Source: Caldithrix abyssi DSM 13497 (GTDB lineage Bacteria; Calditrichota; Calditrichia; Calditrichales; Calditrichaceae). From it: a DNA stretch of 64,000 nt. The stretch's first letter is position 1; the number at the start of each line of letters is the position of its first letter. Shown one piece after another: positions 40,108 to 42,085 of this stretch. The translations under genes were made by a program, and so were the position numbers. The notes under the pieces are model-generated. The model was given only the letters and a program-made list of their open reading frames with translations. It did no database searches and was not told the DNA's origin. The stretch lies in the NCBI RefSeq assembly GCF_001886815.1, contig NZ_CP018099.1, forward strand, positions 1,982,501-2,046,500, written 5' to 3'.

Positions 40108-40216
40108 GGTGTTTTTCCCGAATTTGTTAAGCTAATTAAAATTAAACGATGCTTAATTTTTTAATCTATCAATAAAATATTTAAATGATTGATTTTTCTC
40201 CATTCCTGCTTCTAAA

Positions 40217-40360
40217 TAGAGTTCTGCAAAATGTAAATTTTAGTGTCATTTCGAGGAGCGGAGCGACGAGAAATCTTTTGTTTTTGTTGAAGTTAGAAGA
40301 TTTCTCATCCCGATAAATCGGAATTCGAAATGACATGTATGTGCATTTTGCAGAACTCTA
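40217..40360. mobile_element. 144-bp MITE-like element with 17-bp terminal inverted repeats and 9-bp target-site duplication
   Basis: The ends TAGAGTTCTGCAAAATG (40217-40233) and CATTTTGCAGAACTCTA (40344-40360) are perfect inverted repeats of 17 bp. They are flanked by the direct repeat GCTTCTAAA at 40208-40216 and 40361-40369. Internal arms (40245-40254 with 40325-40334; 40268-40277 with 40297-40306) let the whole element fold into a long hairpin. It has no coding capacity of its own, so it must have been moved by a transposase elsewhere. It interrupts the 3' end of the TOPRIM-like gene. A degenerate piece of the same internal sequence lies at 60138-60164. Confidence 0.9.
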
Positions 40361-40833
40361 GCTTCTAAAGAAAAATGTTTTAATAGTTCATTCAAAAAAT
40401 CGACTTTTGAATCAAAATTAGCCGGTATTAAAGCTAAAAATTTTTCCTTATCAAGTTCATCGGTGTTTCTAAATGATTTAATTTTTAAACTCTGGGCTGC
40501 CTTGTTGTCAATCCCTGCCAGATACCAGCTTTCAATTTCTTTAATAACAACAATTATACAAGCAGGATCTACGGCTTTAAATTTATCAATAATTTTCCTT
40601 TTTCGAGCATCAATACAGGGCGCTGTATTAATATCGGCTAATAGCCAGTAATCGGCTCCCATGGCTTTAATGCTTTTTACAAAATTTTGTAATTTAGAAT
40701 CTTTTAAACGGGCATATTCCCTTACTTCTATAAAATCATACAGCTCTTGTAGCAAGGGCTTAATAATATAATCAACAAATCTTTTATCATCCGTACCTTC
40801 AACCCAAATAAAAAGTCTTCGATAAGCGGCCAT
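40246..40833 (-). CDS. TOPRIM-like protein paired with AAA ATPase; C-terminus replaced by MITE insertion
   Basis: A 195-residue protein lacking a signal peptide. FIWVEGTDDKRFV (E12), LLADIN (D67) and VIKEIESWYLAG (E99, E101, W103) resemble the TOPRIM-like DUF4276/DUF4435/DUF3226 group that accompanies AAA/OLD-type ATPases. The second Asp of the usual DxD is Asn69. Residues 159-195 are encoded by the MITE at 40217-40360. Removing the element and one copy of the 9-bp duplication restores a frame that ends GMEKNQSFKYFIDRLKN at a TAA (40155-40153), giving a 175-residue protein. The start is four bases past the ATPase stop. Whether the altered protein still works is unknown. Confidence 0.8.
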   Translation of the reverse strand: MAAYRRLFIWVEGTDDKRFVDYIIKPLLQELYDFIEVREYARLKDSKLQNFVKSIKAMGADYWLLADINTAPCIDARKRKIIDKFKAVDPACIIVVIKEIESWYLAGIDNKAAQSLKIKSFRNTDELDKEKFLALIPANFDSKVDFLNELLKHFSLEARVLQNAHTCHFEFRFIGMRNLLTSTKTKDFSSLRSSK

Positions 40834-40837
40834 TATT

Positions 40838-42085
40838 TTAAATATCTAATAAATCCTGAACAAAAAGATCTTCTACACCGATCTCATTATTTAAAAATGA
40901 TTTTATCTCTTTATTATCAGCAGGTTTGATTATTTTCGAAAACCCCTTAGAATCTCTTTTACAAAGAAATAAATTCTCTAACTCAGTGTGTTTAACAAAT
41001 TCAGCATTGTGCGTTGTCAAAATAATTTGTTTATTACGCGCAGCATCTTTCATTAGACCGATCAGTTTTCCGATCAGGAAAGGATGAATATTCCTTTCCG
41101 GCTCTTCAATAATGATCAATTTATTTTTCTCGAAAAATAGGGCCAGAATTATGGCTGTTAAATTAATCGTACCATCGGAAATGGCTGAAGCAGGAATATA
41201 TTGATTTTCAATAAATTCTTCTTGCACCTTAAATAAAAGAGATTTATCTGCAAATTTTTCAACATTTAAATTATGAATATAGGGCAAAACTTCCTGCATT
41301 AAATTAAAGAGTTTTCTCTTTTTATCCTGATCGCTTAGAATATTTTTTAAAATAAGGGCCATATTACTGCCATCTTCTTCCAGTTCAACCTTGCCGCTAA
41401 TGGGCGTTGCTCTTTTAGGTAGCCTGGGATCGAAATCATAAATATGTATGTCAGAGAAAATCTCGTTTATAGCGGGAAATGTAAAAAAAGGATTTTCTAT
41501 TAATAAGTTGTTAATAACATTAAATTTCTCCCATAAAAAAGAAGGAAAAATTTCTTCTTCAGAAAATGGGAAGGCAAGCGGTTTATTTAACCTGATTTTT
41601 ATTTGACTATTTTTGCGGATTAAGTCTATCGACCCCTCGCCTAAATTTTCAAGTTCTTTCAATTGATTTTTTTCTTTAGTCAGAATTTTAAATTCACAGG
41701 ATAGGTTCAATTGGTCTTTACTAATTTTAAAGTTCTTTTTTCTCTTGAAAAATGTTAGCTCAAATTCATATTTTGTTTTTGTAATTTTTATCCCGAAGTA
41801 TTTATTACGGTATGGTCGGACGAGGCCAAATATATCATCTGCTTCAATAGATAAAGAAAAATTCTGGTTATTGTTGAGCTTCATGTTCCGTAAATATTCA
41901 ACGCCTCCCTGCAAAGATACAGCATTTTCTAAGCCTGATTGTTCAATATCTTTTAAAAATCTAAAAATTTGCACAAAATTTGATTTACCCGAAGCATTCG
42001 GTCCAATTACAACATTAAAATTAGAAAGTTCAATATTTAGATGATCGAAGCTTTTAAAATTTTTTACATCAATTTTTGTTATCAT
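40838..42085 (-). CDS. AAA/ABC-type ATPase (OLD/AAA_21-like), candidate defence ATPase
   Basis: A 415-residue ATPase with Walker A GPNASGKSN (residues 28-36), an ABC-like signature ISDGTINLTAI, Walker B LIIIEEPERNIHP and the H-loop ILTTHNAEF, in the AAA_15/AAA_21 arrangement of OLD, RloC and PARIS-type ATPases. It is followed at four bases by the TOPRIM-like gene; such pairs are known in phage-defence systems (for example PARIS AriA-AriB). Both genes are much richer in A and T and in ATA, TTA and AAA codons than their neighbours, suggesting transfer. No strong ribosome-binding site is seen before the ATG. Confidence 0.85.
   Translation of the reverse strand: MITKIDVKNFKSFDHLNIELSNFNVVIGPNASGKSNFVQIFRFLKDIEQSGLENAVSLQGGVEYLRNMKLNNNQNFSLSIEADDIFGLVRPYRNKYFGIKITKTKYEFELTFFKRKKNFKISKDQLNLSCEFKILTKEKNQLKELENLGEGSIDLIRKNSQIKIRLNKPLAFPFSEEEIFPSFLWEKFNVINNLLIENPFFTFPAINEIFSDIHIYDFDPRLPKRATPISGKVELEEDGSNMALILKNILSDQDKKRKLFNLMQEVLPYIHNLNVEKFADKSLLFKVQEEFIENQYIPASAISDGTINLTAIILALFFEKNKLIIIEEPERNIHPFLIGKLIGLMKDAARNKQIILTTHNAEFVKHTELENLFLCKRDSKGFSKIIKPADNKEIKSFLNNEIGVEDLFVQDLLDI

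Follow-up and report, generated by a model that had tools for sequence, protein, structure and literature searches.

The locus described here raises the question of whether the mobile element now present in the 3' part of a Caldithrix abyssi TOPRIM gene has supplied the encoded protein with a new tail or has taken its native end away. Taking the evidence together, we consider it very probable that insertion of a MITE cut the conserved end from the gene, likely inactivating a predicted nuclease, and that the MITE was moved in trans. The window, by which we mean the whole 64-kb stretch of DNA that was analysed, comprises bases 1,982,501-2,046,500 of a single 4,978,541-bp contig, and the features under discussion are as follows (positions within the window).

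40153..40207, minus strand: native end of the TOPRIM coding sequence (17 codons and stop), displaced and outside the present ORF
40208..40216, no strand: target duplication GCTTCTAAA, left copy
40217..40360, no strand: MITE, 144 bp
40217..40233, plus strand: left TIR TAGAGTTCTGCAAAATG, 17 bp
40245..40334, no strand: head-to-head TGTC/CGTC-type REP pair (GTCATTTCGA...AAATCTT / AAGATTTCTC...TCGAAATGAC), inside the MITE
40246..40833, minus strand: TOPRIM gene in its present reading, 195 aa, the last 37 codons and stop in the MITE
40344..40360, minus strand: right TIR, the reverse complement of the left TIR
40361..40369, no strand: target duplication GCTTCTAAA, right copy
40838..42085, minus strand: gene for a 415-aa AAA_21/AAA_15 ATPase, the first of the two genes of the operon

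Structure of the insertion

The first-pass annotation described a MITE with perfect 17-bp ends and a 9-bp duplication at 40208-40369, and all of these are real; the span given is that of the element proper (144 bp) together with the two 9-bp copies of GCTTCTAAA. At its termini, 17 bp (TAGAGTTCTGCAAAATG) are perfectly inverted, with arms that reach 22 nt at 91%, and they form the only pair of exact 17-nt inverted sequences no more than 3 kb apart in the window. No transposase ORF lies within 40217-40360. Short, devoid of a transposase gene, bounded by TIRs and flanked by target-site duplications at its dispersed copies, the element is a MITE. The chance of an exact 9-bp direct repeat falling right at its edges is about 4^-9, and a chance origin is excluded because copies elsewhere in the genome carry target duplications of other lengths and sequences.

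As RNA of the minus strand the MITE folds as a single long hairpin (-55.7 kcal/mol, z -11.9); Rfam gave no credible match. A hairpin this stable at the end of the ATPase-TOPRIM transcript might be thought to be the main consequence of the insertion, through altered mRNA stability or expression, particularly as polA lies on the same strand and begins ~45 bp past the native TOPRIM stop, and as a role in mRNA stability has been ascribed to REPs and MITEs (PMC3733652). However, the region yielded no terminator-like site, and the coding change is certain whatever the RNA effect; we regard it as very unlikely that the MITE acts here mainly as RNA.

Copies of the MITE in the genome

The genome contains 16 full-length copies of the MITE, that in the TOPRIM gene included, and 12 of the 16 are 99-100% identical to the TOPRIM-gene copy; four, namely this copy and three others, are identical over 144 bp. 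Target duplications are exact in 12 of the full-length copies (8-12 bp, each of different sequence) and imperfect in the remaining four. Judged from these copies, the family has been active recently and the insertion into the TOPRIM gene is itself recent. The earlier description of the event as 'datable' holds in a relative sense, by virtue of the identical sister copies, and extends no further than relative dating. Identity to three other copies is also the situation that misleads assemblers, and a repeat copy might have been misjoined into the gene; yet the 9-bp duplication is specific to this locus, being unlike that of any other copy, a misjoin cannot make one, and the genome is one contig, such that we consider an artefact of this kind exceedingly improbable.

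Just one of the full-length copies lies inside a recognisable gene, and that is the TOPRIM-gene copy; a few of the others overlap short ORFs, none of them hitting a conserved gene. We considered and abandoned a view of the tail as a MITE-encoded domain under selection, given that no other full-length copy sits in a recognisable gene and that three of the short ORFs overlapping MITE copies gave no Pfam match above the cut-off. Older relatives also occur in the genome: one copy is 152 bp long, and a family of 133 bp has the ends TAGACTTCTGCAAAATT. Within that 133-bp family, three copies have the same flanks (L047:1994-2126, L052:2016-2148, L026:1954-2086), and two of these lie downstream of near-identical IS110-type transposase genes; the 133-bp MITE appears to travel with a larger IS110-type repeat. 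The 18-nt palindrome nAACCGTTnnAACGGTTn has exactly 38 exact copies in the genome, the copy number reported for it in Caldithrix abyssi (PMC5317091).

The rewritten end of the TOPRIM gene

The present 195-aa ORF consists of 157 gene codons, one straddling codon, and 37 codons and a stop wholly in the MITE. When the flanks are joined in silico, the resulting empty site encodes a 175-aa protein in which 17 residues (GMEKNQSFKYFIDRLKN) follow residue 158; recomputed from the sequence, the figures of 195, 175, 37 and 17 residues in the first-pass annotation are all correct. In the joined reading the displaced codons at 40153-40207 encode a conserved KNQSFKYF motif, the C-terminus running G-M-E-K-N-Q-S-F-K-Y-F in register with homologues, whereas the present protein reads R-V-L-Q-N-A-H-T-C-H-F, with QNAHTCHF in place of KNQSFKYF.

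A scan of species genomes yielded 53 homologues, each extended to its stop codon and then aligned, from Bacteroidota, KSB1, Halanaerobium, Methanomicrobiales, Ignavibacteria, Chloroflexi and others; plasmids yielded no homologue, and viruses one distant match. The C-terminus was scored in 51 of the 53, leaving out one homologue cut short by its contig end and one broken copy. All 51 share an ending of the form A-x-x-K-N-x-S-F-x-[YF]-F, in which N163, S165 and an aromatic [YF] at 168 occur in all 51, the A in 50, F169 in 48, K162 in 47 and F166 in 44; with the flanks joined, the motif positions again read K, N, S, F, Y and F. The 37-residue tail is found in none of the 51, and the claim that a recent MITE insertion rewrote the C-terminus stands; homologues with that ending, which the first-pass annotation had named as grounds for rejecting its reading, did not turn up. 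A whole-protein search of 59 relatives matched repeat copies only, by way of the tail.

Because the homologues share the motif and none has the tail, it is the native end that was lost, and the tail is an accidental translation of the MITE. This comparison of sequences shows that the ending of the empty site is ancestral and that it was removed by the insertion. The motif K-N-x-S-F-x-[YF]-F, which this analysis marks as a near-invariant feature of the short TOPRIM family, lies in the C-terminal 20 residues of the homologues (L095-L147), beyond the reach of their OLD-like TOPRIM Pfam match, and may serve in catalysis or in binding a partner.

It is important to note that the gene may have been diverging already before the insertion. 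Even with its empty-site ending, 7 of its residues in 51 near-invariant columns are off consensus (the median is 2), a count that is among the highest in the homologue set and could reflect either relaxed constraint or a divergent lineage; moreover, the three genomes of the same genus (G001-G003) have no homologue of it. These observations favour a module that was already decaying or dispensable, in which the MITE hit a weakly selected gene and had no effect of its own. Against this, neither a stop nor a frameshift interrupts the rest of the TOPRIM gene, the ATPase gene has its full length, and the divergence could equally mark an isolated lineage. Prior decay is a possibility that we take seriously and nonetheless think rather unlikely.

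An ATPase-TOPRIM module

The ATPase gene lies immediately upstream of the TOPRIM gene in 49 of the 53 homologous loci. PADLOC profiles of HEC-01, a candidate defence system, match the C. abyssi pair as an adjacent HEC-01A ATPase (1e-50) and HEC-01B TOPRIM (3.7e-10), and the HEC-01B profile PDLC04191 matches 36 of 39 members of the homologue alignment. The AriB profile does not match the C. abyssi protein and matches 12 of the 39 alignment members at E <= 0.001; a sequence search of the PDB gave no credible match. In an AlphaFold model of L098, an intact homologue from Halanaerobium (pLDDT 91), the top matches by both Foldseek and VIA are C-terminal regions of OLD, of moderate strength (best Foldseek E 9e-4; Z up to 7.9), and VIA-align places the TOPRIM regions of Gabija GajA and PARIS next after OLD (Z 7-8). 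Argonaute, TIR domains and others also appeared among the structure matches of L098; they are weaker than the TOPRIM block and were disregarded. The acidic residues E12, D16 and D67, invariant in the homologues, are present in the rewritten protein, and together with the modelled OLD-like fold they would place the family among TOPRIM domains of the OLD nuclease kind. Filing the pair as an ATPase-TOPRIM module of defence type is well supported; by analogy with related systems, its function would be anti-phage.

Likely effect of the insertion

In class 2 OLD proteins a C-terminal helical domain carries K562, which is needed for full activity and processive cleavage; the TOPRIM sheet is covered by the last helix of this domain, without which a large hydrophobic surface would be exposed (PMC6755086). 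The motif lost in C. abyssi holds a conserved K (47/51) and the start of the last helix, and its lysine may be likened to K562, by analogy and not by residue mapping. In OLD a catalytic lysine and the cover of the TOPRIM sheet both come from the C-terminal helices, and for this reason we think it most likely that the predicted nuclease has been impaired or inactivated by the insertion. The suggestion that a defence gene was 'possibly' inactivated is thereby strengthened: damage appears likelier than first proposed because the 17 lost residues contain a near-invariant motif. The companion suggestion, that the element supplied a new protein tail, fares less well, and is better worded as the loss of a native end, which in L098 has a pLDDT of ~90, against 68 falling to 45 in the MITE tail.

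Could the rewritten protein nevertheless be a working innovation, in which the MITE tail replaces the C-terminal helix or changes specificity? The frame is open for 37 codons, the model of the rewritten protein keeps a helix that extends through 164-183, the three acidic residues are kept in the rest of the protein, and in-frame MITE or RPE additions to retained genes have been described in Coxiella and Rickettsia. However, few residues of the protein are as conserved as those replaced, and the tail is modelled with low pLDDT. Partial function of the rewritten protein is possible on the model; that the tail is a functional replacement seems to us quite unlikely.

We propose instead that a non-autonomous MITE, whose family has been active recently, entered the TOPRIM gene close to its 3' end and duplicated 9 bp of target. 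As the ORF shows, translation now exits the gene at codon 158 and continues through 37 MITE codons, with the motif A-x-x-K-N-x-S-F-x-[YF]-F gone from the product; the protein would thereby be inactivated or badly impaired, and the 37-residue tail would have no selected function. The mover would be a transposase that recognises TAGAGTTCTGCAAAATG ends and acts in trans, not detected in the genome.

Search for the parental transposase

The first-pass annotation had pointed to the ends of the element as a means of finding its parental transposase. We looked for pairs of TIRs at insertion-sequence distance, allowing up to 3 mismatches in the 17-mer or up to 2 in a 14-mer, and found none in the C. 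abyssi genome; single-ended TIR matches in that genome, when inspected, also revealed no parental transposase. Among 40 genomes of the phylum, TAGAGTTCTGCAAAA has one other carrier, G022, where it occurs as MITEs only and where again no TIR pair at insertion-sequence distance was found. A parental transposase with these ends was thus found neither in C. abyssi nor in the 39 other genomes, and the parental element may have been lost. MITEs usually have an autonomous relative with matching ends, although for many families none is known.

Candidates for the parent were rejected on their ends: those of the recovered PF01609 (DDE_Tnp_1) groups differ from the MITE ends, and those of an ISL3 element are not those of the MITE. 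A 1.73-kb DDE_Tnp_1 insertion sequence with a 532-aa frame and ends with GGCTGTTGCA has more than 30 copies in the genome. Nearly all of the 19 copies inspected (L076-L094) are flanked by TCCCGC / GCGGGA halves, and the element appears to insert into the loops of TCCCGC/GCGGGA palindromes; some copies adjoin REP-core sequence.

REP dimers and their TIR-bounded shells

The CGTC class of REPs is characterized by a CGTC or TGTC tag, a stem of 8-9 bp starting AT, and head-to-head dimers (PMC3733652). The core of the MITE has a T/CGTC tag followed by an AT stem start, in head-to-head arrangement, and on these features is a CGTC-type REP dimer. A text search with the REP core strings returned nothing relevant. 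The authors who described the class found no transposase for it, and proposed either extinct movers or many movers (PMC3733652).

Across two genera, each from a different family, TIRs of the form TAGA[GC]TTCTGCAAAAT enclose several kinds of REP dimer. In G022, which belongs to the same class as C. abyssi and to another family, TIR-bounded MITEs of 132-155 bp have a shell in common with C. abyssi around a different core, and these shells enclose at least three other dimers (GTCATCCTGAA..., GTCATTCCGAGCGG... and GTCATTCCGGGC...). Yet another REP dimer is found inside the 133-bp family of C. abyssi. Conversely, G007 has a closely similar dimer in another shell, TAGTGTCTGAACGAAAA, and G003, G012 and G026 have one without a detectable shell. 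The G007 elements (L231-L238) are ~146-157 bp long, with 17-23 bp ends TAGTGTCTGAACGAAAA and the same type of REP dimer. A further arrangement of core repeats is seen at L059:1087-2403, where units of 163-192 bp, composed of REP-like palindromes (TCTGTCATTTCGACGA...), form an array.

It is tempting to suggest that CGTC-type REP dimers spread as exchangeable cargo of TIR-bounded shells, an idea that we advance tentatively and rate as somewhat short of probable, because the shell-less copies could be decayed ones. The shells observed here would fit the idea of many movers for CGTC REPs, and the MITE offers a direct handle on how such REPs move, a question left open in PMC3733652.

Comparison with known systems

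The association of an AAA ATPase with a TOPRIM nuclease, as two genes or two domains, is shared with OLD, PARIS AriA/AriB, Gabija GajA, HEC-01 and MADS mad3/mad4, among which the best matches by fold and by profile lie. The C. abyssi family differs from these in being a short, free-standing TOPRIM protein of ~175 aa with a conserved end of its own, which the named families match weakly or partly.

The insertion event is of an already known kind, since QMITE2, in-frame RPEs and IS or MITE insertions in cas genes precede it, and is unusually well resolved. QMITE2 of Coxiella burnetii is 150-190 bp long, with TIRs of 17-31 bp, duplications of 7-13 bp and a REP palindrome inside; it lies mostly 3' of genes or in intergenic sequence, and in the Dugway strain the final 33 residues of EnhC are encoded by one of its copies (PMC5896051). 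The C. abyssi MITE resembles it in size class, TIRs, variable duplications, internal REP and donation of C-terminal residues, a likeness of general description. However, the REP of QMITE2 is of GTAG type and the element is described as having ceased to transpose (PMC5896051), whereas the C. abyssi MITE has a TGTC/CGTC-type REP dimer and identical copies, and has removed a conserved ending. The RPEs of Rickettsia are likewise CGTC-class palindromic repeats found in frame in protein genes (PMC3733652, PMC10969869), but they are frequent in genes, in contrast to the 1/16 of full-length C. abyssi copies. The CGTC-tagged REPs share with the MITE core its tag, AT-start stem and head-to-head dimer, and were described without a transposase (PMC3733652); the C. 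abyssi core differs in sitting within TIRs and target duplications. Insertions of MITEs and ISs into cas genes (PMC10359306) likewise place mobile elements in defence genes, whereas the target in C. abyssi is an ATPase-TOPRIM module, entered at its 3' end. Alongside these precedents, the C. abyssi locus provides a clean, recent and sequence-complete instance of a defence-type nuclease losing its conserved end, with the lost ending still readable beside the MITE.
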